Shown here piece by piece: positions 4,220-23,271 of a DNA stretch of 23,565 bases. This stretch comes from a virus. The notes beneath the pieces are model-generated. The model made no database searches. It was given only the letters and a program-made list of their open reading frames with translations, and had not been told where the DNA came from. The position numbers and the translations under genes are program-made. Within the stretch, counting starts at the first letter, position 1, and each line of letters opens with the position of its first letter. The DNA is taken from positions 1 to 23,565 of IMG/VR virus record IMGVR_UViG_3300024346_003735. One strand, 5' to 3'.

Positions 4220-4236
4220 TATGTTCTCCTATACAG

Positions 4237-4244: not shown

Positions 4245-4248
4245 CCTC

Positions 4249-4276: not shown

Positions 4277-4287
4277 ATGTGCGCATA

Positions 4288-7200
4288 TTAACCTAGTGCT
4301 GCAATTTCGCCTGTGTTTTTAATACGCAATGGAATGTAAATAAATTCAATTGCTTTAACTGGTTCAATTGCTATATCTAAGTATAGCTCGTTTCTATCAA
4401 TTCTAGCTGGTGTGTTGTTTGATTCATCACACACTACTAAGAAATCATACAATGCACGTAACGCTACTAATTCTAGTAACAATGCATCTGCTGCTGCTTT
4501 AACTTGATCACGTGTGATCTTGTCATTTGGCTCAAACAAGTATGGTTTCGCTAGTAGCTCTAGCTGTCCACGTAAGTAAACAGTTAAACGTGCTACGTTA
4601 ACTCTATCCAATGCACTTGCGTTTCTTGCACGAGTCTTTTGACCAAATACAACAAGTCCTGCACCACTAATAAATGTGATCGGGTTAATTGCATTTGAAT
4701 AAAGTGTATCACGCTGTCCAGTGTTTAATGCTACACTTACAAATTCGCCTTCGCTATTAATATAGCCTGAACTTGTAGCGTTGCTTACACCACCACGTCT
4801 TGTACCTGCTGGAGCAAACCAGGGGAACGCAACTTGGTCGTTTAGTATGATAGTGCGTAGTGCCATATGACTTGCTGGAACAACAATATTGTTTCCTGCA
4901 TTATCACTTGTAAAGCCTGAACCGTAATACATAGCCATGTACTCATCGTAACTAACTGCACCATTGTCATTATCTTCTAATGCTAGTTTAACGTTAGTTG
5001 CCCATTCATTTAATGAAGTTGCATCTGGTGTTAAACGGAATGGTGTATCACCAACAACAAATGCTGTTAAGCGTCTGTCATAGTTTAATGTGATCATTTC
5101 ACCAATTAGCTCTGGATAACCTGGAGTAGCTAACAAGTTAAACTGACGACTTTCTTCGTCACGTATTTCTTGGTTGCTATTAACAGTTGCTTGTAACGCT
5201 TGTACAACACTCTTACGCTGTGCATGACGTCCAAAGCTACCTGAACCATCTGCTTGGTTACCTGAGTCTGTTACCCATCTGTGTGGGTAGTAAGCTGCCA
5301 TTGACGCTCCTGCATCAACTCCGCCTTGACGAACGTTTTTAGCAGTTAAGTCTACATAGCTACGCTCAAAACGCTTAACGTTAAATCCGCTCTTACGTAA
5401 GTTCCATAACAACATACCTTTTGGATATAGTGCTGGATCTGGAGCATCTACGTCTACAAAGTCACTTACAAGCAATTCTGCAATAGATGCACTTGGTGCA
5501 TCGTCTGCTGTTCCGCCTGTGTCACCTTGACGTGCATCTGCAAATAGTATTCCGTTTTCAGTTGTTTGATCTGATTTATCAAGTAAGATCCACTTGCTAA
5601 GTGTAGCATTGTATCTATAAACTGCTGGATAATTTTCAACATCTGCTGTGCTTACCCAAATATCACCTTCTACTAGTGCAGTACCATCTGACTGTACAGT
5701 TGGCTCTGTTGCTGCAACTTGTGGTCCATCTGAGTCTGTTCCACTGTATGGACTTGAATCAGCTGATAAGCCAGTTCCGCCTACATAGTTAAGACCAACA
5801 AATGCATCGCCATTATGTACTAGGATGTCTACTTCGTCAACAACACTGTTGTACCATAGTTGACCATCTGCTGCTAAACTTAATGGAACATTGCCTGATG
5901 CTGTGTAAGTTAGTGGCTTCCAGTTTGAAGCTACTAAACCAGTTGCATTTGGTCCAACATATAAGTTAGCTGTTGTTGCTGCTGCAAAACCAAATCCTGC
6001 TAAACCACTATCTGTGTCAACTAATTTAATTTCTCCACCTAGTTTATGCTGAATTACAACTTTATTTGTTCCATCTACTAATGCTACAACATTTACTAGA
6101 CCTTTAGCATTAATTGCTGCTGCTAATAAATCAGCATCGCCACTTGCGCCTAATGTTGTTACACTTACTGTTGCAGGAGCAGTCATTGCTGCTGTATTAG
6201 CTCTTGATTCACTAATTGTAAATGTGTAAGTTGCTGCTGCAACTCCACTTGCTCCAATTACTGTGCCAGAGATGCTAGTTGCGCCTGCTGCTACTCTTGA
6301 ATAAACTTTGTAATTACCAATTGGGTTACCAAGCTCATCTACGTTAACTTTTGCATATAATGATCCAGCTAGTAAGTTTGCGCCACCGCCTGATTTATCA
6401 AGACCGTAAATTGAACTTTGTGCTGTAGTATAAATTGGTGTTGTTACAGTTGACCATAGCTGTGTCGCTGTGCTGTACTGTTTAACACTTAATTTTGCTC
6501 CACCATTTGGAGTAGTTGTTTTAATCCAAACACTACCACTTGGTGCTGGTGTAGTATCACCTGATTTAAATGCAGGTACTGCTGTGTGCGGTGCTGCTTC
6601 TAATCTTGGTGAACTAGATGTTCCTGCTGTTAGACCTAAGTCTGTTAACAAGTCACCTGTTCCTGCTGCTAGTAAAATTTTGCCATCTGCTACTGAACCG
6701 TTTGATTCACTTAATGAGTTTGCAAATAATTCAATTGAACCATCAACTAGTGCTGATGTTACACCAGCAACGCCTGCTGCATTAATAATTGTAACTAAAT
6801 CAGCAATACCTGTGCCACTTGCTAATACAACATTTGTGCCGTTAATACTAATTGAATCACTTTGAGTTAATGTTGGATTAGTTGCTGTGCCGCGTACCGC
6901 TGCCCAACTTGCTTTCCAAGCATCACTACCTAATTCTACCCAAGTACCTACGTTTGCAGTTCTTTGAGCTGCTGTACCGTAACCTGGAGTTTTGTAGTAT
7001 ACTCTGTTCATTGTGTCGTTAGCATCTATTGCATAATCGCCTAATTGGCCAATTGATGCTTTTGGTGCTGAGCCTAGTCCTGATACTAAATCAGTTGTTA
7101 CTGTAAGTACTGTTGGAGCCTTTGCTGCGAAAGTTTGTCCACCTGTTTGTGTAACTGCTAAGCCGTTCCATTGTAGGATACCGTAGTTGCTAGTTGAAGT

Positions 7201-7614
7201 GTCAAACCAGTAAGCGCCATTTGCTGGCTCTCCACCTGGTGCTGATGCACTTGCTGTTAATTCTGCTGAGTCTAAATCAGCTCTTACAACATACACACGA
7301 TTTGAAACGCCTAATGCAGAGTAAGCAGCTTGTAGGCCGTACTCGTTAAGCTCTCCACCGTGGATCATGTTGCCGTTATTATCGCTATAAAATAGAGGAT
7401 CGCCAAATGTTTCACCAAGCTCACGCTGACTAGTGATCAAATAAGGTTTTCCTGCATTTGCTTTTATCGTACCTGCTGCTGTTCCTGTTCCACTGCTTTT
7501 AGTTTTATTACTAGCAGTAGCAACAAAGATCATAGGTACCGTTCCAGCGGCAGCTGGGGTGTAGAACGATTCGTCAATTACATTGACTTCTACGCCTGGT
7601 GATACTAATGCCAT
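4288..7614 (-). CDS. gp18: Tail sheath protein gp18-like, greatly enlarged
   Basis: This is the contractile sheath subunit. The N-terminus (SPGVEVNVIDES, then a short beta region up to about residue 120, with RVYVVRADL) and the C-terminus (from about 720: MLLWNLRKSGFNVKRFERSY, YPHRWVTDSGN, PGYPELIGEMITLNYDRR, and the end IEPVKAIEFIYIPLRIKNTG) match the sheath family. The length is 1108 aa against 659 in T4, owing to an insertion at about residues 125-690 (bases ~5545-7240). The insertion holds at least five copies of a G-x-Y/W motif module (near 133, 192, 360, 584, 650). It also contains two stretches reminiscent of the flagellin hook IN motif (about 254-298 and 463-531). These probably form surface-exposed domains on the sheath. 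The ATG at 7614 has AGGAGA 6 bases upstream, with a late promoter before it. Confidence 0.92.
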   Translation of the reverse strand: MALVSPGVEVNVIDESFYTPAAAGTVPMIFVATASNKTKSSGTGTAAGTIKANAGKPYLITSQRELGETFGDPLFYSDNNGNMIHGGELNEYGLQAAYSALGVSNRVYVVRADLDSAELTASASAPGGEPANGAYWFDTSTSNYGILQWNGLAVTQTGGQTFAAKAPTVLTVTTDLVSGLGSAPKASIGQLGDYAIDANDTMNRVYYKTPGYGTAAQRTANVGTWVELGSDAWKASWAAVRGTATNPTLTQSDSISINGTNVVLASGTGIADLVTIINAAGVAGVTSALVDGSIELFANSLSESNGSVADGKILLAAGTGDLLTDLGLTAGTSSSPRLEAAPHTAVPAFKSGDTTPAPSGSVWIKTTTPNGGAKLSVKQYSTATQLWSTVTTPIYTTAQSSIYGLDKSGGGANLLAGSLYAKVNVDELGNPIGNYKVYSRVAAGATSISGTVIGASGVAAATYTFTISESRANTAAMTAPATVSVTTLGASGDADLLAAAINAKGLVNVVALVDGTNKVVIQHKLGGEIKLVDTDSGLAGFGFAAATTANLYVGPNATGLVASNWKPLTYTASGNVPLSLAADGQLWYNSVVDEVDILVHNGDAFVGLNYVGGTGLSADSSPYSGTDSDGPQVAATEPTVQSDGTALVEGDIWVSTADVENYPAVYRYNATLSKWILLDKSDQTTENGILFADARQGDTGGTADDAPSASIAELLVSDFVDVDAPDPALYPKGMLLWNLRKSGFNVKRFERSYVDLTAKNVRQGGVDAGASMAAYYPHRWVTDSGNQADGSGSFGRHAQRKSVVQALQATVNSNQEIRDEESRQFNLLATPGYPELIGEMITLNYDRRLTAFVVGDTPFRLTPDATSLNEWATNVKLALEDNDNGAVSYDEYMAMYYGSGFTSDNAGNNIVVPASHMALRTIILNDQVAFPWFAPAGTRRGGVSNATSSGYINSEGEFVSVALNTGQRDTLYSNAINPITFISGAGLVVFGQKTRARNASALDRVNVARLTVYLRGQLELLAKPYLFEPNDKITRDQVKAAADALLLELVALRALYDFLVVCDESNNTPARIDRNELYLDIAIEPVKAIEFIYIPLRIKNTGEIAALG

Positions 7615-7650
7615 GTTATTTCTCCTGTTGGATGTTAGTGTTCTGTACAG

Positions 7651-7658
7651 TATTTAGT
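7651..7658 (-). promoter_or_regulatory. T4-type late promoter for gp18
   Basis: ACTAAATA on the minus strand matches TATAAATA at 6 of 8 positions and shares the downstream CTGTA with the gp19 promoter. The predicted start is near 7645, about 31 bases before the ATG. The leader contains AGGAGA. Confidence 0.55.
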
Positions 7659-7660
7659 AG

Positions 7661-7688
7661 TTTACTGAAATTTCACCTAAGTTATAGT
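7661..7688 (+). promoter_or_regulatory. Possible weak sigma-70 promoter for the HNH-type gene
   Basis: TTTACT (7661-7666) and TATAGT (7683-7688) are separated by 16 bases, matching the host consensus at 4 of 6 and 5 of 6. If used, it gives a leader of about 32 bases containing AGGTGA. In an AT-rich genome this match could arise by chance. Confidence 0.3.
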
Positions 7689-7713
7689 ACCGAAAAAGGG
7701 ATATAAAAGGTGA

Positions 7714-7721
7714 GCTAAATA
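7714..7721 (+). promoter_or_regulatory. T4-type late promoter, predicted leaderless, for the HNH-type gene
   Basis: GCTAAATA lies 5 bases before the ATG at 7727, the same spacing as at 3469. The predicted +1 falls on the A of the ATG. It is a 6 of 8 match to TATAAATA. Confidence 0.45.
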
Positions 7722-7726
7722 TATGT

Positions 7727-8062
7727 ATGAGACCTTTATGCAAATGCGGGCATAGACCTGCTGCTATAAACTACAAAAAACAAGGCAAAGTATACTATCG
7801 TAAACTATGCGAAATTTGTTTGCGCCACGGCGAAGGTCATGGTATACCTAAATGGAAACTACGTGGATATGAAAAGAAAAACAATTGTGAAAAATGTGGA
7901 TTTAGATCAAAGCATACAGAACAGTTTAATGTATTTCATATAGACGGAGATTTAAATAATTGCAGGCCTAATAATTTAAAAACTATTTGTGCTAACTGTC
8001 AACGCATTGTACAGAAAGAAGGAGTGCAATGGAGGCAAGGAGATTTAACTCCTGACTTTTAA
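7727..8062 (+). CDS. HNH-type zinc-binding protein (111 aa)
   Basis: Zinc-ligand pairs are obvious: C5-x-C7, C28-x2-C31, C54-x2-C57 and C88-x2-C91. Between the last two pairs is an HNH-like core, FNVFHIDGDLNNCRPNNLKT, with H71, D73 and N77/N83, so the C-terminal half looks like a treble-clef HNH nuclease. The N-terminal C-rich part may be a separate DNA-binding ribbon. I recall near-identical small proteins in many cyanophage-type myoviruses, where they are annotated as hypothetical or HNH endonuclease. Because the protein is conserved in those phages it may be a resident phage function rather than a selfish homing enzyme, but this is inference. Its 3' end overlaps the convergent kinase gene by 18 bases. 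Confidence 0.8.
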   Translation: MRPLCKCGHRPAAINYKKQGKVYYRKLCEICLRHGEGHGIPKWKLRGYEKKNNCEKCGFRSKHTEQFNVFHIDGDLNNCRPNNLKTICANCQRIVQKEGVQWRQGDLTPDF

Positions 8063-8551
8063 ATGTTCCATAAGTTGATAAGTGTTAAACATTAGACCAT
8101 TTAGATCACGATTATTATCAATAGTATAATCAGCCATCCATTGTTCTAAACTCATTGAGTCTTTGTTTTCTGGAGGTAAATGCTCACTGCGATCAACCCA
8201 GATAGCATAATCAAATACACCAGTATTTTTCATTGCAAAAAATTCACGCTTGTTTCTTAGGCCGCAATATATGTCATGTTCTTTAAATATTTCTCTACCT
8301 AGTGTTGCTGCATCTTTTTCATTATAATCACAGATAGCATCATACCATTCTTTTCGATGTGCATGCCTGTCAGCATAACATTCTTCTTCGTTAGCGTAAC
8401 CATACTTTTCTTTTAGATCATTATATATAAACAGTTTTGAACAAAATCGGCTGCTGCTTTCAAAACTATAGTTGTAGTTTTTTTCTAGTATTTCGCAAAC
8501 AGTATCTTTACCGTGCCGACCGTGGCCAATAACTAATAATTTAGGTAACAT
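8045..8551 (-). CDS. P-loop nucleotide kinase-like protein
   Basis: A Walker A motif of the GHGRHGKDT type (residues 9-17, K15, D16) follows a first strand (KLLVIG). The GKD-[ST] variant is typical of deoxynucleoside-monophosphate and related small phage kinases (T4 gp1 and the cyanophage 'adenylate kinase-like' proteins). Further segments look conserved: FESSSRFCSKLFIYN (lid/NMP region), RHAHRKEWYDAICDYN, the strand DYAIWVDRSEHLP in the usual place for the base-binding or Walker B strand, and the end YTIDNNRDLNGL. The likely role is phosphorylation of nucleotides recovered from host DNA. Substrate cannot be read from the sequence. The gene has a strong ribosome binding site (GGAG) and, unlike its late neighbours, a perfect host-type promoter. 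Confidence 0.8.
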   Translation of the reverse strand: MLPKLLVIGHGRHGKDTVCEILEKNYNYSFESSSRFCSKLFIYNDLKEKYGYANEEECYADRHAHRKEWYDAICDYNEKDAATLGREIFKEHDIYCGLRNKREFFAMKNTGVFDYAIWVDRSEHLPPENKDSMSLEQWMADYTIDNNRDLNGLMFNTYQLMEHLKVRS

Positions 8552-8588
8552 TTTAACTCCGCATGATTAATAAGACAACTTATTTCTT

Positions 8589-8617
8589 ATTATATACGAG
8601 TTTTGCAGTTATGTCAA
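8589..8617 (-). promoter_or_regulatory. Perfect-consensus sigma-70 promoter for the nucleotide kinase
   Basis: On the minus strand TTGACA (8617-8612) and TATAAT (8594-8589) are separated by exactly 17 bases. The predicted start is near 8582, giving a leader of about 31 bases with GGAG before the ATG at 8551. No late promoter octamer is present, so the gene is expected to be early. Confidence 0.9.
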
Positions 8618-8626
8618 GTATTTTTT

Positions 8627-9382
8627 TTAACCTATTGTAAAGCCGTAGCCAACACCACCAGCAACTGCCATTGATACTTCAGCATCAAGTTTTTCCATAT
8701 CAGCTTGTGCTTCTGCTTTAAGAGCATCACCGTTTAGTGTCGATCCGCCTTGTGGACCAGCTATAGTAGCAAACTTACTTCTTGCTTCGCCTAGCATATA
8801 TTTACAACCAGCAAGTGTATAATCTTTAATCCATTGTACAGCTAAGTAATCACTAAGTAATTCGCTATCTGGACGATAGTTATAACAATAAAGTAATATT
8901 TCTTCTTCTGCTCTTGGACGTTGTAATAACGTAAGTTTCTTAGTTGGGGAGTTCCATTTAAATTCTATAAATGATCCAAACATTCTGCCTACTAGCTCTT
9001 GGTGTTGTGCGAACATATCATATGTTGCTAATCCACCTAATTTTGAGCCTGAAAGCAAATATGTATTAGTGTATGCTGCGTTAAATGGTTCAAACATACT
9101 GCCGCCATCTCCGCTACCTGCACGTGATCCTATTGATCTACGGTATAACTTACGAACTTCAATAACTTCATTTGGCAAAGTATATTCGTTTTGATCTACA
9201 ACAGTAGTTAAGAACATGTATGATTCTTCAACACTATTATCACTACGCTGTCTAAAACGTGTAAGTGCTTTAGTTAATGCTGTTTGATAGTGTATAGGAT
9301 CAAGTTCAACATCAATCATGCCTCCACCAAGGAATGTGTTAACATAATCGTATACTTCTTGTTTTTGTGTCGCTAGTGTCAT
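8627..9382 (-). CDS. gp13: Neck protein gp13-like
   Basis: T4 gp13 forms, with gp14, the neck ring that closes the filled head and accepts the tail. This 251-aa protein (T4: 309 aa) shows the family layout: an N-terminal helix pair (KQEVYDYVNTFLGGGMIDVELDPIHY and TALTKALTRFRQRS), beta strands (YMFLTTVVDQNEYTLP, then EVIEVRKLYRRSIGS), a strand IEFKWNSPTKKLTLLQRP, and the most telling C-terminal block WIKDYTLAGCKYMLGEARSKF, followed by a Gly-rich turn (GPQGGSTLNGDALK), a helix and the end GYGFTIG. T4 gp13 has the equivalent WVKDYATALAKE, GGVTIDG and FGILVG features. The start at 9382 has GGAG 8 bases upstream. The gene diverges from gp14 across a shared promoter region. Confidence 0.85.
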   Translation of the reverse strand: MTLATQKQEVYDYVNTFLGGGMIDVELDPIHYQTALTKALTRFRQRSDNSVEESYMFLTTVVDQNEYTLPNEVIEVRKLYRRSIGSRAGSGDGGSMFEPFNAAYTNTYLLSGSKLGGLATYDMFAQHQELVGRMFGSFIEFKWNSPTKKLTLLQRPRAEEEILLYCYNYRPDSELLSDYLAVQWIKDYTLAGCKYMLGEARSKFATIAGPQGGSTLNGDALKAEAQADMEKLDAEVSMAVAGGVGYGFTIG

Positions 9383-9399
9383 ATGAAAGTCTCCATTAG

Positions 9400-9420
9400 T
9401 ATTTATCGTTACGATAAATA
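9400..9420. promoter_or_regulatory. Palindromic divergent pair of late promoters between gp13 and gp14
   Basis: TATTTATCG (9400-9408) and CGATAAATA (9412-9420) are a perfect 9-bp inverted repeat with a 3-base spacer. Each arm contains GATAAATA, reading leftward to gp13 and rightward to gp14. Predicted starts are near 9394 (leader GGAGACTTTCAT before the gp13 ATG) and 9426 for gp14. The -10 elements are only about 5 bases apart. Confidence 0.75.
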
Positions 9421-12028: not shown

Positions 12029-12469
12029 ATGAGCAATCGTATTACATGTAGTGGTGCATTATTTTACACACTAAAAACAAATAGATTTTTATTCTTACAT
12101 AGAGCAAACGGTAAACGTGGTAATATGTGGGGACTTGTTGGTGGCACTAACGAAGGAGCAGAAACTCCATTTGAAGGACTTAAAAGAGAAATTGAAGAAG
12201 AAATTGGTTTCTTGCCTGATATTAAAAAGACATTACCTTTAGAGAGTTTTATTTCACCTGACAGCAGATTTTATTTCCATACTTATTTGTGTGTTATCAA
12301 TGATGAATTTATTCCTACCTTAAATACTGAACACGACGGATATGCTTGGTGTTCATTTACTAAATGGCCAAAGCCGTTACATCACGGACTTCGCAATACA
12401 TTACAAAGTAAAGTTAATTTAGCTAAGTTAGATACTGTATTTAAAACAATCAATTTACTTGACAATTAG
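12029..12469 (+). CDS. Nudix hydrolase
   Basis: A perfect Nudix box, G-x5-E-x7-REI-x-EE-x-GF, spans residues 39-61, with the catalytic glutamates in REIEEEIGF. The fold's flanking strands are visible (SGALFYTLKTNRFLFLHR before it, FYFHTYLCVIN and GYAWCSFTKWP after it). At 146 aa it is a single-domain hydrolase that cleaves a nucleoside diphosphate linked to another moiety. The substrate is not predictable; NDP-sugars, dinucleotide polyphosphates and RNA caps are options known for the superfamily. It begins 8 bases after the gp15 stop without a clear ribosome binding site, which suggests coupling. It ends 24 bases before the heptose cassette, whose promoter overlaps its last codons. A role in hydrolysing ADP-sugar products is possible but speculative. 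Confidence 0.88.
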   Translation: MSNRITCSGALFYTLKTNRFLFLHRANGKRGNMWGLVGGTNEGAETPFEGLKREIEEEIGFLPDIKKTLPLESFISPDSRFYFHTYLCVINDEFIPTLNTEHDGYAWCSFTKWPKPLHHGLRNTLQSKVNLAKLDTVFKTINLLDN

Positions 12470-12487
12470 TCAAAAATAAGGTATAAT
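12459..12487 (+). promoter_or_regulatory. Perfect-consensus sigma-70 promoter of the heptose cassette
   Basis: TTGACA (12459-12464) and TATAAT (12482-12487) are separated by exactly 17 bases. The -35 element overlaps the end of the Nudix gene. The predicted +1 is 12494, the A of the hldE ATG, so the mRNA would be leaderless. Only an AAGG 12 bases upstream could act as a weak ribosome binding site on longer read-through transcripts. Confidence 0.88.
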
Positions 12488-12493: not shown

Positions 12494-13633
12494 ATGAAAG
12501 TATTAGTTCTTGGTGACATAATTATCGACAAATACATATATGGGACTAGTAGTCGCATTAGTCCTGAAGCACCAGTGCCGGTAATAACTTATATTGATGA
12601 AAAAGAAACAAGGGGCGGCGCAGGTCTTGTATACGAAAACTTAAAAAGTTTAGGCGTTGATGTTGATATGTTTGAAACACAAGGTCAAGTTAGTGTTAAG
12701 ACTAGAGTAATTTGTGACGGACATTATGTTACACGTATTGACGATGATGCACAATCAAATGGCATGGACGTTCTAAAACAAGTACAAGAAACTGATTTTT
12801 CACAATATGAATATGTTATATTAAGTGATTACAACAAAGGCGTATTAGACGAAGCAAAAGAAATTATTGCACATATTAACAAGTATAATTGTAAAGTAAT
12901 TGTTGATCCAAAAGAAAATGCTTGGTTCTATGAAAATGCTTGGTTAGTAAAACCTAATTACAACGAGTTTCACGACTTAGGGTTTGATGACTGGCAAGGC
13001 AATATTATTACAACTAATGCCGGTGAAGAAGTTATTGCAACTATCGATGGTGTGAAATATGAAATACCTGTTGATAATTTAGAAGTGTCAGATGTTACTG
13101 GTGCAGGTGATTGTTTCTTAGCAGCATTTGTTTACGGTCTTACAAAAGGCTATGAATATAAAAAATGTTTAAAATTAGCAGTTACAGGTTCTACTGAAAG
13201 TGTTAAGCATTCAGGTACATATACGCTTACTATAAACGATATTGAAGAACGTGTAGTATTTACTAACGGAGTCTTTGATATACTACACACGGGTCATTTT
13301 GAGCTCCTAGCAGCGGCAAAATCGCTTGGTAATAAACTTATTGTTGCTGTTAATTCAGATGCAAGTGTACAGAGATTAAAAGGCAAAAATAGACCTATCA
13401 ATGATTTAGGTAAACGTGTAAAACAATTAGAAATGCTACCATGGGTAGATGAAGTTCATGTATTTGAGCAAGACACACCTTACGAAATAATTAAACATAT
13501 ACAGCCTGATTTAATTGTTAAAGGCGGAGATTATATTGTTGAAACTGTTGTAGGACACGATTTAGCAGAAGTGCATATTGTACCTACTGTAGACGGTTAT
13601 TCAACAACACAGATTATAGAGAAAAGTAAATGA
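12494..13633 (+). CDS. hldE: Bifunctional heptose 7-phosphate kinase / heptose 1-phosphate adenylyltransferase, HldE-like
   Basis: HldE phosphorylates D-glycero-beta-D-manno-heptose 7-phosphate at C1 and, after dephosphorylation at C7, transfers AMP from ATP. The N-terminal PfkB-type kinase (residues 1-~250) shows GDIIIDKYIYG, SRISPEAPVPV (20-30), a GG pair (41-42), DPK (138-140), KPN (153-155) and the catalytic VTGAGD (201-206, D206). The C-terminal nucleotidyltransferase (~254-379) shows FTNGVFDILHTGH (HxGH at 265-268), VAVNSDASVQRLKG, EDT-like QDTP, VKGGDY and STTQII. E. coli HldE has 477 aa; here a kinase segment after residue ~60 and the interdomain linker are shortened, but all motifs remain. 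The stop overlaps the next start (ATGA). Confidence 0.92.
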   Translation: MKVLVLGDIIIDKYIYGTSSRISPEAPVPVITYIDEKETRGGAGLVYENLKSLGVDVDMFETQGQVSVKTRVICDGHYVTRIDDDAQSNGMDVLKQVQETDFSQYEYVILSDYNKGVLDEAKEIIAHINKYNCKVIVDPKENAWFYENAWLVKPNYNEFHDLGFDDWQGNIITTNAGEEVIATIDGVKYEIPVDNLEVSDVTGAGDCFLAAFVYGLTKGYEYKKCLKLAVTGSTESVKHSGTYTLTINDIEERVVFTNGVFDILHTGHFELLAAAKSLGNKLIVAVNSDASVQRLKGKNRPINDLGKRVKQLEMLPWVDEVHVFEQDTPYEIIKHIQPDLIVKGGDYIVETVVGHDLAEVHIVPTVDGYSTTQIIEKSK

Positions 13634-14448
13634 AAATATTAGTTACAGGAAACCAAGGATTTATTGGTAAAAATGTTGCAAGCTATTTGCAACAACAAGG
13701 ACACGAAGTAGAAGGTTGGGAATGGGAACCAGGTGTGCTTCCGCATACTGAAGGTTACGATTGGTGTATACACTTAGGTGCAATTAGTTCAACTACATAC
13801 ACAGATGTAAATCAAATACTAGAACAGAATTTTGAGTTTAGTGTAAGACTAGCGCAAGTATGCGAAAACTTTGGCACTAATTTACAATACGCATCAAGTG
13901 CAAGTGTTTACGGACCAACTACACATTTTACAGAAAATGGACCATTATTACCTCAGTCGCCTTATGCATGGTCAAAGTATTTGTTTGACAGATTTCTAAA
14001 TCAGTATATAAATGAATTTGAAATTAAAATACAAGGATTTAGATATTTTAATGTATACGGCGAAGGTGAAGAACACAAAGGTGATCAAGCAAGTCCATAT
14101 TCTAAGTTTACAAAGCAAGCTAAAGAAGATGGACTAATTACACTATTTGAAGGCAGTGACAAATATCTTAGAGACTTTGTTTGTATAGATGATATATGTA
14201 AACTACATGAAAAAATGTTCGACGTAGATCAATCAGGTGTATTTAATGTAGGTACTAGTAATCCTACAAGTTTTGAAACAGTAGCACAGACTATTGCTAA
14301 AAAGCATACTGCCGGTATACATTACATACCAATGCCAGATAACATAAAGTCACAATACCAGGAATATACTTGTGCTGACTTAACTAATTTAAATAGTGTA
14401 GTTGACATGCAATGGACAAACATAGAGGATTATATTAATGGAAAATAA
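13630..14448 (+). CDS. hldD: ADP-glyceromanno-heptose 6-epimerase, HldD-like
   Basis: HldD inverts C6 of ADP-D-glycero-beta-D-manno-heptose to give the L-glycero form used by heptosyltransferases. The 272-aa protein is an extended short-chain dehydrogenase: the NAD(P) site GNQGFIG (7-13), SSTT (53-56), YASSASVYG (87-95), and the catalytic Y112-x3-K116. What separates it from generic sugar epimerases is a run of HldD-specific matches: GFRYFNVYGEGEEHKG, QAS, LFEGSDKYLRDFV, GVFNVGT, SFETVA, YIPMPDNIKSQYQ and ADLTNLN. E. coli HldD is 310 aa; the difference is mostly in the N-terminal half, where the segment between the Rossmann motif and the HLGA strand is short. It overlaps hldE by 4 bases and the cupin gene by 11. 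Confidence 0.9.
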   Translation: MKILVTGNQGFIGKNVASYLQQQGHEVEGWEWEPGVLPHTEGYDWCIHLGAISSTTYTDVNQILEQNFEFSVRLAQVCENFGTNLQYASSASVYGPTTHFTENGPLLPQSPYAWSKYLFDRFLNQYINEFEIKIQGFRYFNVYGEGEEHKGDQASPYSKFTKQAKEDGLITLFEGSDKYLRDFVCIDDICKLHEKMFDVDQSGVFNVGTSNPTSFETVAQTIAKKHTAGIHYIPMPDNIKSQYQEYTCADLTNLNSVVDMQWTNIEDYINGK

Positions 14449-14836
14449 CGAACCAACTAGACTAAGTGGTGTTGTGCCTAAAGGATGGGGATACGAATTA
14501 ATTTGGGCTACTAATGAAAAATATTGTGGTAAAATTATGTTCTTTGAAAAAGAAGGGGCAATGTTTTCAATGCACTTTCACAAAGAAAAAGATGAAACTT
14601 GGTTTGTAAATAGTGGCAAATTTAAAGTACAATGGATTGACACTGCAACAGCAGGACTTCATGAACAAGAATTAAATGAAGGCGATGTTTGGCACAATCC
14701 TCCATTGCAACCACATAGATTAATTTGCATGAAAGCAGACTCAAGTATTACTGAAGTATCAACACCAGACAGTGTTGAAGATAATTATCGTGTTGCACCT
14801 GGTGACACACAACGAACTGCACCTACAGATGGCTAG
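14438..14836 (+). CDS. Cupin, phosphomannose-isomerase-like; candidate heptose phosphate isomerase
   Basis: A single cupin domain of 132 aa. Metal-binding motif 1 is MHFHKEKDETWFV (H46, H48, E53) and motif 2 is EGDVWHNPPLQPHRL (H93). The entry strand GWGYELIW and the end ITEVSTPDSVEDNYRVAPGD resemble the cupin domain of type II mannose-6-phosphate isomerase (PWG-x-Y..., EVQ...ED-x-R...D..GR). The family interconverts ketose and aldose phosphates with manno configuration. It overlaps hldD by 11 bases and gmhB by 8, so it belongs to the heptose operon. The operon otherwise lacks the sedoheptulose-7-phosphate isomerase step (GmhA); this cupin could supply it, but binding or regulatory cupins of sugar operons are alternatives. 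Confidence 0.75.
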   Translation: MENNEPTRLSGVVPKGWGYELIWATNEKYCGKIMFFEKEGAMFSMHFHKEKDETWFVNSGKFKVQWIDTATAGLHEQELNEGDVWHNPPLQPHRLICMKADSSITEVSTPDSVEDNYRVAPGDTQRTAPTDG

Positions 14837-15479
14837 TGTTTATCAATGGGGACAACCTAAAGCACAGCCTCAAACAATAACACCTAAAGAAGTAAACATG
14901 AAAGAAGGCTATATTGCACCTAAGTGTGTAATAGGTCTTGATCGTGATGGTGTTATTAATGTTGATAGAGGCACTTATACATATCGTCCAGAAGACTTTC
15001 AGCCTATTGAAAATAGTTTAAGTGCAATTGCTAAACTACGTATGCTCGGACATAAAATAGCTATAATTACTAATCAAGGCGGAATTGAAAAAGGATTGTT
15101 TACACAGTATGATGTTGACAATGTACATAACCATATGTTTAATTTATTAGGAGAAGCGGGATGTCCTAGTATTGATGCAATATATTATAGTATGAGCAGC
15201 AGAAAAAATGACGAATGGGCAAAGCCAAATCTTGGAATGTTTAAACGATGTGAAAAAGAACACCCGCACGTTAAGTTTAAAACAGGATACTATGTAGGCG
15301 ATAAAATGAGCGATCTAAAAGCTGCATTTAAATTAGGTGCAAAACCTGTGTTAGTTCGTACAGGATATGGCAAGCAAACTGAAAAAGAGTTAAACAAGTT
15401 TTCTTACCGTGACATAAAGAAAAAGACCATCGTATTTGATGATCTTAATTCTTTTGCAAATTACATGGAAACGCTTTAA
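14829..15479 (+). CDS. gmhB: D-glycero-beta-D-manno-heptose 1,7-bisphosphate 7-phosphatase, GmhB-like
   Basis: This HAD-family phosphatase removes the C7 phosphate between the two HldE reactions. Visible motifs in the 216-aa product are LDRDGVINVDRG (motif I, nucleophile D38, acid D40), ITNQGGIEKG (motif II, 80-89), AKPNLGMF (K132), VGDKMSDLKAA (motif III/IV, 156-166) and VLVRTGYGK. Family GmhB enzymes usually carry a Cys/His zinc loop before the KP-x-PGM motif; here that loop reads YYSMSSRKNDEW and has no Cys or His. The start at 14829 overlaps the cupin gene by 8 bases. An alternative ATG at 14898 (MKEGYIAPK) has a weak AAGAAG upstream and gives a length closer to the family start. The stop overlaps the convergent 2143-aa gene. 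Confidence 0.88.
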   Translation: MASVYQWGQPKAQPQTITPKEVNMKEGYIAPKCVIGLDRDGVINVDRGTYTYRPEDFQPIENSLSAIAKLRMLGHKIAIITNQGGIEKGLFTQYDVDNVHNHMFNLLGEAGCPSIDAIYYSMSSRKNDEWAKPNLGMFKRCEKEHPHVKFKTGYYVGDKMSDLKAAFKLGAKPVLVRTGYGKQTEKELNKFSYRDIKKKTIVFDDLNSFANYMETL

Positions 15480-18400
15480 GCCTGCGCTTCACCCCATTTA
15501 AGTAGTATGTTTGATTTTAGCTCACCGCCACTCACTTTATAAATGTTAATAGCTAACACGTCTGGACCATTTGGGAATGTTCCTCTACCACCTAGTGGAG
15601 TGTTTGTAAGTTCTTTCAACTCAGCTAATGATAGTGTTGAACGTTCACCCGGTACAGCAATGAATGAGAACACTGTCTCACCCGGCTGTGCATATGGTGG
15701 TTGACTAAATTCAAAGTTAAACACATCACCTGGGCTAACTGTACCAGTATATGAACTGTTAAAGTTCACTTTATAATACGAAATTTGACCGCCGCCGCTA
15801 CCAAATAAGTGCGGGCCTTCTACACTTGATACAGCAACGTTTGCAGGGAAACTAACATCACTTTGGTTAGTCGGATTACCGCCTGCATCACTTAACGGTG
15901 TACCTGCTTTAGCACCTGTTGCGTTCCATACACTTTCAGTAAAGTATGCAAATGAACCGTTACTAGAATCACCACCTTTTTCAAATGTTTGGTTTACACC
16001 ATTACCCGAATTTGCATTTGGTCTTTGTGTAAAGTATACTAGATATCTTCCATACTGTGTTTGATCAAAGATACTTTGAATGGCTGTTCCTCCAGGAAAA
16101 TAATCGCCGCCGCCAGCACCGTCACTAATTAAATCACCAACTTCTAAGTTTGCTAGTTCCCACGAAGCCTGTGTAAAGTATCCATAGTTTCTGTTTGTTC
16201 TAAAGTTCCACCATGGCATTAATGTTGCTGTTGTAGTTGCTTTAGACATAACAGTAGCAGTTGTATACGTAGCAGTGTCACCACTATTCCAACTAATACC
16301 ACCACCTGATGCAATCTGTGCAAAACTTGGCTGTCCACCTTGAGCAACACCACTTAGTCCGGCCCAGTTAACATCTCCAGGGTTAAGTGGATAGTTTTGA
16401 GGGTTAAGAACACCCTCAACAATCACGCCGCCTGTAATTGGAGCGTTTGAGTTATCTGGATCAATACCATCCGAAGTAATCTCAAGTCCTTGTAGTAGTA
16501 ACTGCGCTCTGTTTAGTAGTTCTCTTTCACCTAAGTCTCCAACAATAGCGTTTGAAACACTAGGTGCTAGTCTAAGCATAAATGCTGTCTGTCTAGTTGT
16601 ACTAACTGTGATGCCTGTTTCAGCGTAACTAAAGATATAACCGCGATCTTCATCAAAGCCGCCGTCTGTAATAAACGCTGAACCCCAGTGTGATATAAGT
16701 GGCGTAACTGTATTACTAATTAACACAACACCTGTTGCTTCAGCGTGTGTAGCTGCTACACCGCCATTATATATTCGATCTGCGCCAGCTTGGAAGTTTG
16801 TTAATGAAGCTGCTCTAACAACACCTGTTAGTGTGTTTCCTGATCTAGCATCAAACGACATAACTTCGTTATCAATATACACTGTTCCCCAGTCTGGGAA
16901 GAACGATGCGTCTTCTAATACTATAGTATTTTGATCTATAGTCATTGCTGATGCTAATTTACCTGGAGGTCCTTCGTTAGTAACTTCGTAACGTACTGGC
17001 AAGTTACCTGAGCGCATAAACGCTTCTGTGTTTACGTTTGAGTTACGCATTCTGTGACAGAATACAAAGTTACCATCTGATCCACGTAACATGAAGTCAA
17101 TAAAACCAGCACCATACCAACTGTACTGAATACCAATCATTTGCATTTTAGCAATATCAATATCGTAACCACTTGGTCCGTTGCCGTCAAGTGTATCTAG
17201 GTTAAAGTCTTTTTGTTTTGCTTTTTTATCAACAACTAAATTCATTTTTGCGCCACTAATTGTACCAACGCCTCTCCAGTCAGGAGAAACTGATAATTCA
17301 GTTTCACTAATTACATTAGTAATAACGTGTGTCATACCTTTAATAACAACACGGTCGCCTGCTTTAAGTTGTTCTCTAAATCTTGTTCCTACACCAATAA
17401 CTTCGTTATTGTTAGTTTGCATTGTAATAGTGCCTGAAATTTGCTTAGTTGATGTACGTTGACATACTTGAACATTTGTTCCGTCATATTCCCAATAAAT
17501 TCCGTTTTGATCATCAAAGATTCCTGAGCGTACTGTAGCACCGTGCCATGAAACAACACTCATTTGTGCGCCAAATCCTAGTACTGCTGTTGTAGAACCT
17601 AATCTACGCTGCGATCTTACTTGGAATGATCTTTCGTCAATAACGTCAACAACTTCATAATCAAAGTTTGGTGGAACAGCCGTTTCTGATCCACTGTTAT
17701 ATCCTGGAGTTTTTACTCCTAACAATCTAACAATGCCGCCAACTTGTACTCCGTGATCGTTATCATCTGTAGTAACTGTAATAGTAGAGCCAACTTCAAC
17801 ACCATCAGCAGTTACATTTGCAAGATCATAACTTGGTGCAAATAACGCACCAGTTGTATACATAATGCCTTTACCTGATTGATATCTAATATACTTTTTA
17901 CTTTGACGTATTGCCTGTGCGCCGTGTTGTGGTCCACCAGTACCTAGTTGTACACCTCCGTCGTATGGTCTGTGTATAAAGAATGAGTCAGGTCTTGGAT
18001 AAACAATTCCTGATATAATTTCAGTACTAGCATCAATTGCGCCTGGTGCTCTTGCTGTATATCTTAATTTGTTAATATCTGGTATATCTGTTGCAAAGAA
18101 TGATCCACTTGCAAGTGCATGGTTATTAGAACCGTCATCCGAAGTAACAGTAGTAATAAACGAATCACCTGGAACAAATCCGTGTGCGTTAGCAAATGTG
18201 ATTTCTAAAGTAGCAAGTGCAGAGTATGAAATTGCTTCAGTAACTGCTATTGGTGCAGTCGATGCTTGCGACATCAAAATAGTTGATATTAGATCTAAGT
18301 TAGAACCTGGTGCACCTGTACCAGTATGTGTGACAGTTTCAATTTCTCCGCCTGCACCGACTGTTGAAACTGTTACATCAATATCGTTTGACGGCGTTGC

Positions 18401-21400
18401 TCCATCTACTAAGTTACCAGCTACTGTTAATCTATCACCAATTGCGTATCCTGTACCAGCATTTGCTGCACTTACAGTATCGTACACTGCAAAGTTTTTA
18501 GCAACAGTAAATGTTGCACTTGATCCAACAGGAACATTGTTAAGGCCTGCTACATCAGTAAATGTGCCGCCCGGTGTAGCTGTTGTACCTGCAGAGTTAA
18601 TAGTTGTAATTACACCTGTTGTTAGTGCATCAACTGCACTAATTGTAATAGTTAAATCGTTTGCCGGCGTTGCTCCGCCTAAGAATGTACCTAATATTTT
18701 TAATTCTTGGTTAGCGTTATAAAGTGTACCAGCATTATTAATAGCTACAACATAGTTATTAGATACAATAGAAACATCAAAAGTAGCTCCTAAACCTTGT
18801 CTATTTGAACCACTTACTGCTAAGGCTTCGCCGTCTGTTGAACCAGTACCTGCTATACTAGCAACTGTAATTTCACCTGTTCCGCTAACATTATCAAATG
18901 TGATAGTTGCGTCATTTGCTGGCGATGTGCCACCTAGTTTGTCACCTGTAACAGTAAACGTTTCTGTAGGCAAATAGTTTTGTCCACCATTGTCTACACT
19001 AACTGCATAAAAGCCATTACCGTTAGTAATTGTTAATGATGCAAATTCACCTGTGCTACCTGAATATGTAGCATTAGGACCACCTGCTCTAGTTGCATTA
19101 CCGCCACTTGTATAAGAAGAGTGTGCAGATGAATCATAATTTGTTGATAGTGTTGGGTCTGTAAATATTGAAAATGTTGTACTGTTTATTACATTAACAT
19201 AAACGCCTTGAGCGTTTATTTCAGTCATTCCAACTACATCAGTAATTGTAACAAATTGTCCATTTGTTAATTGCGATGTATCTGCAACAGTAATTACAGC
19301 AGGACTAGCCTGTGTAATATTAGTAATTGGTAATTGAACATAGCCTATTTGACTAACATTACCATAATTGTTAATTACACTTGGTGAAGCACCTGCATAT
19401 GTTAATGAAGTAATGTCGCCAGTGCCGCCTACAGCTACAACACTTACAGATAAGTCGTTTGTTTCGTCGATACCGCCTAATGCCGAACCTAGTACTTTAA
19501 TTACGTCACCTACTGCATAGCCACTATCAGTTGCTGAACTTGCTATTGCTACACTACTAAAGTTGCCTGCTGTCCAGTTTACATCAAGTAATGCTCCAGT
19601 ACCTGTTCCACCTTGCGGTGTAGCAGTTGTACCTGTTATAGATAATGATCCATCCCAATGTACACCTGTATGTGAAAATGTAGAAACTCCACCACCAGCT
19701 GTTACGGCTGTAATTGTTATTATTATGTTATTAGTACCAGTTGTACCGCCTGCATTTAAACCATCAATTGTTATTCTGTCACCGTTGGCATATCCTGTAC
19801 CTGCTGTATTAACTGTAACTGTATAAGATCTTTCAGCGTTTTGGTCAAGTGTAATATCAAATGTTGCACTAGTACCTGTTGGGTTTACATTACTTGCTGC
19901 AACACCTGTATATGTCTTTTTATTAGGTACTAATGTACTTGAAAAGTTTCCATCAAAATCAATATAGTTTGCTCCAACAGTGGAAATGTTTATAGCATCT
20001 CCATTACCTTTATCAGCTGATAAGTTAGCTAATACACCAGTTACATCATCAAGATATACTCTATTCTCGCCTGGGTTTACAGTTTCAGTTATTGCTGGAG
20101 TTATATATGTTCCACCGCCGGCGCTAGTATCAATAATACCAGTTACCTGTGAACCTACAGGAATATTACCATTAGTTAATGGTGAACCAACTTCTGGAGC
20201 AGGGCCATCAAATGGAATTATAGTTGCACCTGTTGGAATATTTAATTGTGCGTTCATTACTCCGTTACTACCATTACTTTGAATAGTAAAGTTAGCTGTA
20301 CCAACGTTAGCACCTGTATAAAAGCCTGCTTTTCTTAATTGTGTATATGTAGTAGTTAATATTTCACCATTTGCTGTACCTACTTTTGCTTTTGCATAAA
20401 AGTTAAATGTAGAAGTAGTCGGCGTTGCGTTAATAATAAAGCTACCTTCAGCTCTTGCAGCACCAGTGATTGAATTCTCTAACGCTTTAATAGTTATAGG
20501 ATCGCCTGCTACAAACCCATGTGGGCCTTGCGTAGTTACTGTAATTAATGATTGACCAACACCTTCTGAGCCTGTGGATGCATCAGTTACAACTAAAATA
20601 ACTTCGGTATCAGTACCTGGTATTTCGTATACACTTGGGTATCCGCGCAATGTTCCAATAGCACTCCACTTAGTAGGCTGTAGACCATATTCAAAGTCAG
20701 CGTCAAGCATTGATTTTGGTTCAGCAGTTCTACCTCTTTCAATAGCATCTGTACCAAAATCAAATGGTCGTGTTCTAACTTCTCTTTCTTCTACAAAAAT
20801 TTGTAAATCGTCTGTTGCTGAATGACCAGTAGTAGAATAATTTAATTTAACAGTTGTAACACCGTCTGTAGTTTCTAAGAATTTTAAAAAGTCGGTATCA
20901 ATTCCGTGATCCATTATTGTTACAACACCGCCTTGTGTGGCACTACCAAAGTTGTAAATAATTTCGTTTGTAATTGTGTTTGTAATTAATAGCAATTCAT
21001 TTGACTGCCATTTGCCTTGTATTTTAACATTGCCTACACCAAGATATATCTTTTTAGGTAATCCGCCTAATCCGTTTGTTATTGTATCTACAGTATTAAA
21101 TACTAAAGTATTAATTTTTGCATTTGGACCAGCTGTTACGCCGTTTGCTGTAGCAGTATTAAATGTATGTAATGAAGTATCAGATGATACACCAACATTA
21201 ACAGTAATCGTAGTTGAAGTTACTGCTGTAATTTCAAGTGGCGCATAATAAAAACCGTCTTTGCCAGTAGCATTAGGAACCCCTGAAGCTCTTGGATAAG
21301 GATGCAGTGTTGCGTTGCCGTCTAATGCACATGTAAATGTAACTGCTCCTGGAGCAATAAAGATTTCGTCACCAACAGATAATGTATGTGTACCAATAGT

Positions 21401-21907
21401 TAGTGACATCACTCCTGTTTGTGGTTTATATGTTCCGTTTGTTGGAGTAAATTGCTGCAATGTCTCAGATGCTGTTCCTGAAAGATCCTGAGTTACTTCT
21501 GTGTTTGCTGCTGAGTATGCTACCTGTGGGAAAATATTGTCTTTAATTAAGTTGCCGATCCACGTATGAGTTTGTATTTCAGGCTGTCGATCACCGTCAA
21601 CTTGTGCAACATCTTGATCCCAATAGTATTTAATGTTGTTTATTACAGTTTCATTACCGCCGTATCTTAAATCAGTCAAGTAAGCATCAATAATATAACC
21701 AACATCTCTTTGACATTTTGCTTCGTTATATGTATAACCTACAAAGCCCGATACGTTTGCTGCTACTTGTGCAGCAATCCATGCAGTTGATTCTTTTTGT
21801 ATAAATTCTTTGTTTGCACTTAACAAAGCGTAAGCGTTTGGATAACGATTATCGTTTGCTCCAATGCCCGGTTTAAATACATAATTTTTTATCTGTGTTT
21901 TTGCCAT
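15476..21907 (-). CDS. Very large repeat-containing virion protein (2143 aa), tail fibre or baseplate type
   Basis: The N-terminal ~100 residues (IKNYVFKPGIGANDNRYPN, then RDVGYIIDAYLTDLRYGGN) and the conserved-looking region at ~1250-1750 (FFIHRPYDGGVQLGTGGPQ, KKYIRYQSGKG, IQYSWYGAGFIDFMLRGSDG, LRLAPSVSNAIVGDLGERELLNRAQ) match, as I recall, giant structural proteins of T4-like marine phages. In between, about residues 690-1220 hold five imperfect repeats of a beta-rich unit with the core AGTGYAxGD..xVxG..LGG...ND. HGF-x-x-GD modules occur near residues 465 and 1245. An FCCH-like module (VADTSQLTNGQFVTITDV) sits between repeats 2 and 3. No enzyme motif is seen. A particle-surface, possibly receptor-contacting, role is inferred. 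Codon use and frame are continuous throughout. Confidence 0.85.
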   Translation of the reverse strand: MAKTQIKNYVFKPGIGANDNRYPNAYALLSANKEFIQKESTAWIAAQVAANVSGFVGYTYNEAKCQRDVGYIIDAYLTDLRYGGNETVINNIKYYWDQDVAQVDGDRQPEIQTHTWIGNLIKDNIFPQVAYSAANTEVTQDLSGTASETLQQFTPTNGTYKPQTGVMSLTIGTHTLSVGDEIFIAPGAVTFTCALDGNATLHPYPRASGVPNATGKDGFYYAPLEITAVTSTTITVNVGVSSDTSLHTFNTATANGVTAGPNAKINTLVFNTVDTITNGLGGLPKKIYLGVGNVKIQGKWQSNELLLITNTITNEIIYNFGSATQGGVVTIMDHGIDTDFLKFLETTDGVTTVKLNYSTTGHSATDDLQIFVEEREVRTRPFDFGTDAIERGRTAEPKSMLDADFEYGLQPTKWSAIGTLRGYPSVYEIPGTDTEVILVVTDASTGSEGVGQSLITVTTQGPHGFVAGDPITIKALENSITGAARAEGSFIINATPTTSTFNFYAKAKVGTANGEILTTTYTQLRKAGFYTGANVGTANFTIQSNGSNGVMNAQLNIPTGATIIPFDGPAPEVGSPLTNGNIPVGSQVTGIIDTSAGGGTYITPAITETVNPGENRVYLDDVTGVLANLSADKGNGDAINISTVGANYIDFDGNFSSTLVPNKKTYTGVAASNVNPTGTSATFDITLDQNAERSYTVTVNTAGTGYANGDRITIDGLNAGGTTGTNNIIITITAVTAGGGVSTFSHTGVHWDGSLSITGTTATPQGGTGTGALLDVNWTAGNFSSVAIASSATDSGYAVGDVIKVLGSALGGIDETNDLSVSVVAVGGTGDITSLTYAGASPSVINNYGNVSQIGYVQLPITNITQASPAVITVADTSQLTNGQFVTITDVVGMTEINAQGVYVNVINSTTFSIFTDPTLSTNYDSSAHSSYTSGGNATRAGGPNATYSGSTGEFASLTITNGNGFYAVSVDNGGQNYLPTETFTVTGDKLGGTSPANDATITFDNVSGTGEITVASIAGTGSTDGEALAVSGSNRQGLGATFDVSIVSNNYVVAINNAGTLYNANQELKILGTFLGGATPANDLTITISAVDALTTGVITTINSAGTTATPGGTFTDVAGLNNVPVGSSATFTVAKNFAVYDTVSAANAGTGYAIGDRLTVAGNLVDGATPSNDIDVTVSTVGAGGEIETVTHTGTGAPGSNLDLISTILMSQASTAPIAVTEAISYSALATLEITFANAHGFVPGDSFITTVTSDDGSNNHALASGSFFATDIPDINKLRYTARAPGAIDASTEIISGIVYPRPDSFFIHRPYDGGVQLGTGGPQHGAQAIRQSKKYIRYQSGKGIMYTTGALFAPSYDLANVTADGVEVGSTITVTTDDNDHGVQVGGIVRLLGVKTPGYNSGSETAVPPNFDYEVVDVIDERSFQVRSQRRLGSTTAVLGFGAQMSVVSWHGATVRSGIFDDQNGIYWEYDGTNVQVCQRTSTKQISGTITMQTNNNEVIGVGTRFREQLKAGDRVVIKGMTHVITNVISETELSVSPDWRGVGTISGAKMNLVVDKKAKQKDFNLDTLDGNGPSGYDIDIAKMQMIGIQYSWYGAGFIDFMLRGSDGNFVFCHRMRNSNVNTEAFMRSGNLPVRYEVTNEGPPGKLASAMTIDQNTIVLEDASFFPDWGTVYIDNEVMSFDARSGNTLTGVVRAASLTNFQAGADRIYNGGVAATHAEATGVVLISNTVTPLISHWGSAFITDGGFDEDRGYIFSYAETGITVSTTRQTAFMLRLAPSVSNAIVGDLGERELLNRAQLLLQGLEITSDGIDPDNSNAPITGGVIVEGVLNPQNYPLNPGDVNWAGLSGVAQGGQPSFAQIASGGGISWNSGDTATYTTATVMSKATTTATLMPWWNFRTNRNYGYFTQASWELANLEVGDLISDGAGGGDYFPGGTAIQSIFDQTQYGRYLVYFTQRPNANSGNGVNQTFEKGGDSSNGSFAYFTESVWNATGAKAGTPLSDAGGNPTNQSDVSFPANVAVSSVEGPHLFGSGGGQISYYKVNFNSSYTGTVSPGDVFNFEFSQPPYAQPGETVFSFIAVPGERSTLSLAELKELTNTPLGGRGTFPNGPDVLAINIYKVSGGELKSNILLKWGEAQA
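18250..19850 (-). repeat. Five imperfect protein repeats inside the 2143-aa gene
   Basis: The repeated core reads NAGTGYA-x-GDRLTV-x-G, then a Gly-Gly pair, then a-x-NDI-x-VTV. Its conserved GYA-x-GD positions lie near 19780, 19515, 18975, 18710 and 18445. Spacing is about 265 bases, except between copies 2 and 3 (about 540), where an FCCH-like insert lies. Conservation is at protein level, not as DNA direct repeats. Confidence 0.75.
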
Positions 21908-22795: not shown

Positions 22796-22813
22796 ACGTT
22801 ACTCCTACAAGTA

Positions 22814-22821
22814 TATTTATC
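22814..22821 (-). promoter_or_regulatory. T4-type late promoter for the 294-aa and 2143-aa genes
   Basis: GATAAATA on the minus strand; the predicted start is near 22808, giving a leader of about 13 bases that contains AGGAG. TTATC-A-GATAA around it forms a near-palindrome like the one at 9400-9420. Confidence 0.6.
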
Positions 22822-22832
22822 AGATAATACTA

Positions 22833-23246
22833 TTAAGGAGTTAGCGGGTTTTGATTGTGGAAGTACTGTGCTGTATAAATTACTTTTACACCAAGATTTG
22901 CATCAGCTGGTGATGTAGTAGCTGGATTTAGGATGATATCAACATGACTATCATTTACTACAGCACTTACTGTAAGTAAATCTCTTAATGTATTATTTCT
23001 AGCATATACGACCACACTAGCTTTGTCTCTAGTAGCAGTTACTAAAACTTTAATTATCTCTTTATTATTAGAGTCAAGGTCTGCAGATATTGTATATTCA
23101 GCTGACGAAAATGATCCCATATGCCATCTATCAAGCAACGTATCTACGTATACTTGTTTCCAGGGTCCGTTATGTGATGTACCTAAATTATTTTTAAATA
23201 ACAAAGTATTTTGTAAGCCTGCTTTTATATATGCGCCAATATCCAT
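22833..23246 (-). CDS. Conserved T4-like marine phage structural protein (137 aa)
   Basis: The protein has a family-like pattern: GLQNTLLFKNNLG, GPWKQVYVDTLLDRWHMGSF, SSAEYTISADLDSNNKEIIKVLVTAT (read as a beta-sandwich) and a C-terminal VKVIYTAQYFHNQNPL. I recall close relatives in cyanophage-type myoviruses next to fibre and baseplate genes, described as virion proteins without a T4 counterpart. No catalytic or membrane segment is visible. It has AGGG about 10 bases before the ATG and its own late promoter, and lies in the same direction as the fibre genes downstream. A baseplate or fibre-attachment role is an inference from context. Confidence 0.75.
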   Translation of the reverse strand: MDIGAYIKAGLQNTLLFKNNLGTSHNGPWKQVYVDTLLDRWHMGSFSSAEYTISADLDSNNKEIIKVLVTATRDKASVVVYARNNTLRDLLTVSAVVNDSHVDIILNPATTSPADANLGVKVIYTAQYFHNQNPLTP

Positions 23247-23271
23247 TATATTTTATCCCTAACTGATATAA

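Follow-up and report, generated by a model that had tools for sequence, protein, structure and literature searches.

How can a marine phage make ADP-heptose without the enzyme that opens the pathway? The question is raised by IMG/VR virus record IMGVR_UViG_3300024346_003735, a fragment of 23,565 bases (its whole length is called the window here), in which four plus-strand open reading frames (ORFs) between positions 12494 and 15479 form an ADP-heptose-type operon encoding HldE-, HldD-, cupin- and GmhB-like proteins. The first step of ADP-heptose synthesis is carried out by the isomerase GmhA. Compared with the GmhA-HldE-GmhB-HldD pathway of E. coli, the window has homologues of HldE, HldD and GmhB that keep most catalytic residues, but it has no GmhA, an extra cupin, a shortened kinase domain and a GmhB without the zinc site. 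The most likely single explanation, which we consider probable, is that the cupin is the missing isomerase and replaces GmhA. An earlier note on this DNA had rightly recognized the heptose enzymes, but had missed both the possible role of the cupin and the absence of GmhA. The four genes are:

12494 to 13633, plus strand: HldE-like protein of 379 residues, a fused heptose-7-phosphate kinase (about residues 1-250, shortened) and heptose-1-phosphate adenylyltransferase (about residues 251-379)
13630 to 14448, plus strand: HldD-like ADP-heptose 6-epimerase of 272 residues (NAD epimerase; TIGR02197 is the best family)
14438 to 14836, plus strand: metal-type cupin of 132 residues (Cupin_2), the proposed sedoheptulose-7-phosphate isomerase
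14829 to 15479, plus strand: GmhB-like HAD-IIIA phosphatase of 216 residues (GmhB models rank top; the zinc-binding loop is missing)

GmhA, which the earlier note had suggested looking for in relatives, was not found in the contigs of 15 relatives (PF13580), nor in 22 viral records and the complete genomes of P-SSM2 and S-SSM7 (TIGR00441). The cupin is the only conserved member of the cassette without an assigned pathway step. Its motif residues (H46, H48, E53 and H93) are invariant and, as a beta-barrel, it has neither the SIS fold nor the sequence of GmhA. In a genome scan, relatives of the cupin were found next to parts of HldE in many lineages, and fusions of the cupin with the HldE kinase, with GmhB and with HldE_NT are found in archaea and in bacteria of the candidate phyla radiation (CPR). 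The cupin is fused to the HldE kinase in L159, L163, L168 and L169, Woesearchaeota included, and, judged by shared open frames, in G028, G031, G069, G176, G348, G370, G400 and G483, while L164 encodes a GmhB-cupin-HldE_NT triple fusion. GmhA is itself fused to the kinase in other genomes (G106, G125 and G306, again by shared open frames). Since each of the two is fused to the kinase in different genomes, the cupin and GmhA occupy the same slot.

The distribution of the two proteins agrees with this. Among genomes of two phyla with an HldE kinase of at least 200 bits, the cupin is present in 16 of the 22 that lack GmhA and in one of the 27 that have it. The archaeal phylum of L163, where 33 of 148 genomes encode the kinase, has the cupin in 0/17 genomes with GmhA versus 10/16 without, and the phylum of L155 (Parcubacterium; kinase in 16 of 380 genomes) in 1/10 versus 6/6; the corresponding Fisher p values (8.7e-5 and 8.7e-4) overstate independence and are guides only, because the genomes are related and partly incomplete. 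In the lone GmhA-positive genome of the second phylum that also has the cupin, the latter scores 75 bits and lies on a different contig. Sequence matches of the cupin family include D-lyxose isomerase, L-ribose isomerase and D-lyxose/D-mannose isomerase, with the phage cupin profile matching D-lyxose isomerase 2y0o at 4.6e-5. On smaller sugars, these cupin sugar isomerases catalyse the same type of conversion, from ketose to manno-aldose. The fused archaeal cupin of L163 clears the Pfam cut-offs for Lyx_isomer (D-lyxose isomerase) and MannoseP_isomer (mannose-6-phosphate isomerase), and the phage cupin itself scores under both.

Several observations weigh against an isomerase role, beyond the relatedness of the genomes counted. 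Six archaeal genomes with the kinase have neither GmhA nor the cupin, G399 carries both, and in the Parcubacterium phylum 16 sampled genomes have a relative of the cupin without an HldE kinase. Fold matches to CapF, KdgF, quercetinase and other proteins equal or exceed those to isomerases; because this comparison is not isomerase-specific, the case rests on genomic context and the archaeal Pfam matches. Two of these points would fit a scenario in which GmhA comes from the host and the cupin works at a later point, as an epimerase or tailoring enzyme on heptose or ADP-heptose. In the capsule pathway of Campylobacter, GDP-heptose is the substrate of cupin 3,5-epimerases, CapF is an epimerase-type match, some genomes have the cupin without the kinase, and in many phages the cupin stands among 2-oxoglutarate (2OG) oxygenases, a halogenase and a carbamoyltransferase. 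A late-acting cupin nevertheless seems rather unlikely to us, in view of its complementarity with GmhA, its fusion to the kinase and to GmhB (the neighbours of the missing step) and its matches to Lyx_isomer and MannoseP_isomer. We found nothing relevant in the literature on the cupin together with GmhA or as a sedoheptulose isomerase (subscription papers not covered). In PHROGs and RefSeq phage records, the cupin family (phrog_7851) is labelled cysteine dioxygenase, apparently from fold alone.

The case for the cupin presupposes that the operon makes ADP-heptose, which its sequence makes very likely. The HldE-like protein contains PfkB and cytidylyltransferase domains (Pfam, PHROGs and NCBIfam), shares 154 of 379 aligned residues with E. 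coli K-12 HldE and retains the motifs RISPEAPVPV, GGA, DVTGAGD, FDILHTGH, KGGDY and GYSTTQII, although its kinase part lacks about 65 residues relative to E. coli HldE. For HldD, the best PDB match is E. coli HldD (1eq2, 3.6e-44), and S90, Y112, K116 and K150 correspond to E. coli S116, Y140, K144 and K178, i.e. the catalytic triad of short-chain dehydrogenases/reductases and the second base. The GmhB-like protein, for which relatives favour the ATG at 14829 as start (a GTG at 14772 is also possible), retains DRDGVIN (D38 and D40), T81 of motif II and D158-K159 (D158 in motif IV), while its zinc site is lost: E. coli C92 and H94 are replaced by Ser, and C107/C109 are deleted. In these residue comparisons, the K-12 proteins served as references throughout. 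Scores are on the other side of the balance, with 282 of 521 bits for HldE (PRK11316), 158 of the 181.5 bits required by NCBIfam for its adenylyltransferase domain, 226 of 274.6 bits for HldD in TIGR02197 (by far its best family) and a GmhB score under the curated cut-off. All three proteins are called '-like' here because they fall under the NCBIfam equivalog cut-offs. The assignment to the ADP-heptose pathway made in the earlier note nonetheless holds, as pathway-specific residues are present in both HldD (K150) and HldE (RISPEAPVPV, GAGD, HTGH and KGGDY). NAD repair by the nucleotidyltransferase was dropped as a candidate function because the heptose-specific motifs are retained. Values of dN/dS between 0.12 and 0.29 for all four genes (versus L016 and L022) indicate purifying selection and show that the genes are maintained. 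In a comparison with a near-identical relative (L003:10001-11137), HldE (12494-13633) has a synonymous divergence (dS) of 0.13 and neighbouring genes 0.06 or less, which suggests recent recombination inside HldE.

The layout of the locus is as had been proposed, with overlaps of exactly 4, 11 and 8 bases between consecutive ORFs, a shared promoter and a position inside the structural region, next to genes for tail sheath, tube, a gp15-like sheath stabilizer and a giant virion protein. As for gene content, the earlier inventory was correct for the four operon genes and overlooked a NUDIX gene upstream and a second operon at the right edge. The features that concern us further are:

12029 to 12469, plus strand: NUDIX hydrolase directly upstream of the HldE-like gene, syntenic in relatives
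12459 to 12487, plus strand: sigma-70 consensus promoter TTGACA-N17-TATAAT (12/12 match)
15476 to 21907, minus strand: giant virion structural protein of 2143 residues, convergent with the operon and a possible acceptor
23282 to 23563, minus strand: 2OG-oxygenase-like gene, cut by the end of the window, the last gene of the second operon (which in L043 comprises a Trp halogenase, two 2OG oxygenases, a heptosyltransferase-like protein and a carbamoyltransferase)

Shuffles predict 0.00 occurrences of this promoter in the window, and in 15 relatives the same hexamers precede HldE with different spacers between them. Because the promoter ends 6 bases before the HldE start, the transcript would be leaderless or have a very short leader. 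Both sugar operons carry sigma-70 promoters, that of the second being TTGACA-N16-TATAAT, whereas structural genes carry [GC]ATAAATA instead. Each of the seven copies of this motif on the minus strand is followed, 13-34 bases downstream, by the start of a minus-strand gene (window 902-9407 and 22795-23279), although its count in the window is not significantly enriched (8 versus 4.6 expected), and it is likely a late-promoter motif of the structural genes. If T4-like phages are a guide, the sugar cassette might be expressed early and the structural genes late. Another candidate late promoter, TATAAATA, was dropped as it is not enriched. A second perfect TTGACA-N17-TATAAT, on the minus strand at 8589-8617, precedes a deoxynucleotide-kinase-like gene.

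What might the ADP-heptose be for? Part of the answer lies outside the window, in a 99%-identical relative (G001; 96-100% identity at the protein level). There the second operon, 2 kb past the right end of the window, encodes a Trp halogenase, two 2OG oxygenases, a 315-residue protein, a NodU/CmcH carbamoyltransferase and a further 2OG-like protein, the one truncated by the edge of the window. The 315-residue protein was modelled with a pLDDT of 90.3, and the model resembles GT9 (Z 22.8), WaaF (20.9), TibC (20.2) and WaaC (19.7); GT9 members as a group score Z 19.3-22.8 versus 12.1 or less for other nucleotide-sugar enzymes, and plant NDH subunits, which have the same fold, score 18.9-19.4. 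The protein also keeps a D-S-x-G-x-H signature resembling the GT9 ADP-binding motif. Its match to GT9 in sequence is weak, however (under 22 bits and below the Pfam PF01075 cut-off), and by eye an Arg stands at the position of the WaaC catalytic Asp13, both of which count against a heptosyltransferase and are the reason why we call it heptosyltransferase-like. A PDB profile search with the transferase family gave no match and hhalign against single WaaC/WaaF sequences was unsuccessful; since the PF01075 search alone was too weak, structure was needed to name this transferase. We regard it as probable, with somewhat more confidence than we have in the cupin step, that the heptosyltransferase-like protein uses ADP-heptose. 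The search that the earlier note had advised for a GT9 heptosyltransferase has thus yielded a GT9-fold protein outside the window, under the Pfam cut-off, with a NodU/CmcH carbamoyltransferase linked to it.

This linkage is widespread. At least 474 IMG/VR stretches encode, by pattern, relatives of the heptosyltransferase-like protein, and in the best 80 of these the carbamoyltransferase is its neighbour in 78. A relative of the giant virion protein of the window is found near the pair in 73 of the 80 loci, across lineages; the cupin is present in 23 and a halogenase of the window type in five. On several large contigs without HldE adjacent to the pair, HldE is located elsewhere. Cys-rich proteins of about 260 residues that contain the motif CRCSxGCCCxW, frequently as tandem copies, are encoded near the pair in 29 of the 80 loci (L047-L126) and in L012:2746-5139. 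In the giant virion protein of the window, residues 868-939 match E1_FCCH (PF16190).

From gene identities, active sites, linkage and fusions, we infer all enzyme activities, the step assigned to the cupin and the acceptor in the following scheme. In place of GmhA, the cupin would convert sedoheptulose 7-phosphate into D,D-manno-heptose 7-phosphate; the rest of the pathway would be completed by the HldE kinase, the GmhB-like phosphatase, the HldE adenylyltransferase and HldD. ADP-heptose would then be passed to the GT9-fold heptosyltransferase and the NodU/CmcH carbamoyltransferase of the second operon, to give a heptose with a carbamoyl group and other modifications on the host envelope or on the adjacent giant virion protein. 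On balance, we consider the scheme, from the cupin to the modified surface heptose, probable. A bolder version, in which the cupin is an unrecognized non-orthologous isomerase of phages, DPANN archaea and CPR bacteria and the pair belongs to a widespread heptosyltransferase-carbamoyltransferase system that decorates the giant virion protein, is doubtful.

The destination of the sugar is where the readings diverge most. Addition to the lipopolysaccharide (LPS) inner core or outer polysaccharide of the host, which might serve receptor masking, superinfection exclusion or ongoing LPS synthesis, is a serious possibility. The sigma-70 consensus promoter implies early expression via the host polymerase, the fold of the transferase is near WaaF/WaaC, and modification of LPS or capsule has been proposed for clusters in cyanophages (PMC3037559, PMC7824862) and pelagimyophages (PMC7029224). 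The WaaC catalytic Asp is not kept, however, and in 73 of 80 loci, across lineages, the pair lies next to members of a single giant virion protein family, which rather points to the virion. There, the sugar might be placed in a TibC-like manner on the giant virion or fibre protein after hydroxylation by 2OG oxygenases, a possibility we entertain tentatively. In favour of this, the best structural matches include TibC, which heptosylates proteins, the cassette comes with 2OG oxygenases, and the clusters of S-SSM7 and P-SSM2 are flanked by tail-fibre genes on one side and by gp13 or other tail genes on the other. Adjacency would nevertheless also be expected if the cassette merely occupied a variable structural region, and the timing differs between structural genes with late-type [GC]ATAAATA and sugar operons with sigma-70 promoters. 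A secreted or intracellular small molecule made of a halogenated amino acid and a sugar, of the kind suggested for the S-SSM6a cluster (PMC7824862), would account for the linkage of the carbamoyltransferase with Trp halogenases, a methyltransferase and 2OG oxygenases. It is improbable, as nearly all loci have the carbamoyltransferase but only 5/80 the window-type halogenase, and the heptosyltransferase fold suggests a macromolecular acceptor.

Arguments from the host bear on the same issue. The cyanobacterial hosts have been reported to lack LPS heptose, which speaks against host LPS as the target of homologous cassettes in cyanophages. Such cassettes are found in P-SSM2, S-SSM7, S-CAM1/3 and P-TIM68 and, because cyanophages carry them (PMC3037559), the deduction in the earlier note of a heterotrophic host from the lack of heptose in cyanobacterial LPS fails. 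A non-cyanobacterial phage can be argued for on other grounds, namely its kinship with rhizobial and pseudomonad jumbo phages. The 1,108-residue tail sheath is nearest to those of Sinorhizobium phage Phosso, Agrobacterium phage Atu_ph07 and PA5oct-like jumbo phages, similarities that point to a jumbo-type phage akin to Atu_ph07. The operon block is syntenic (HldE-HldD-cupin, with or without GmhB) in about 20 other IMG/VR contigs, some with inserted 2OG-Fe(II) oxygenases or Trp halogenases, and a different phage group (L009, L012, L019 and L030) has the same genes with the carbamoyltransferase and several 2OG oxygenases.

Phage-borne ADP-heptose genes are thus already known from cyanophages, and the points that look new are the role of the cupin and the link between the heptosyltransferase-like protein and the carbamoyltransferase. 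In P-SSM2, S-SSM7 and S-SM2, the linked genes T4-GC 302-308 (Sullivan et al., 2010; PMC3037559) are homologous to those of the window and encode a heptosyltransferase-like protein (302), a carbamoyltransferase (303), HldE-NT (304), the HldE kinase (305), the cupin (307) and HldD (308). The cluster differs in that HldE is split, a GmhB-like gene is absent and a 114-residue mini-HAD protein (306), annotated as phosphoheptose isomerase, is present; its proteins are about 34-46% identical to those of the window, which is from a different phage lineage and has two separate operons. T4-GC306 was rejected as a GmhA, being apparently a mini-HAD of about 110-114 residues with a DxD motif (FDLDGTLC in a homologue) and weak HAD matches (L042:15655-15999, L041:15640-15975 and L158:10015-10347); it may be a counterpart of GmhB. 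The cluster of S-SSM6a, interpreted in passages of Iyer et al. (2021; PMC7824862) as making a halogenated amino-acid/sugar metabolite or a capsule decoration, shares with the window type the carbamoyltransferase, halogenase, 2OG oxygenases, cupin and HAD phosphatase, but those passages name neither a heptose pathway nor a heptosyltransferase. Pelagimyophages, another phage group, also carry rfaE (HldE) among structural and tail genes, together with other glycosyltransferases, GT8 being dominant (PMC7029224).

If the cupin is the missing isomerase, it would close the ADP-heptose gap in many phages and in archaea and bacteria with small genomes, and correct the labels 'cysteine dioxygenase' and, for T4-GC306, 'phosphoheptose isomerase'. 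The pair, encoded in so many IMG/VR stretches, would represent a glycosylation system that is common in phages yet unstudied, with host surface and virion as candidate targets and cyanophages P-SSM2 or S-SSM7 as cultured examples. Two entries in our set may be misleading as to origin. L127 and L128 (PBPT01000016.1, 335 kb; PBPT01000082.1, 153 kb), which belong to a Neomarinimicrobiota metagenome-assembled genome, are probably mis-binned phage DNA because both carry the structural genes of this phage and the cassette, the 335-kb contig in a syntenic arrangement. L029, in which HldE-HldD precedes an HldD-HldE that is inverted and differs in identity, is probably a chimeric assembly.

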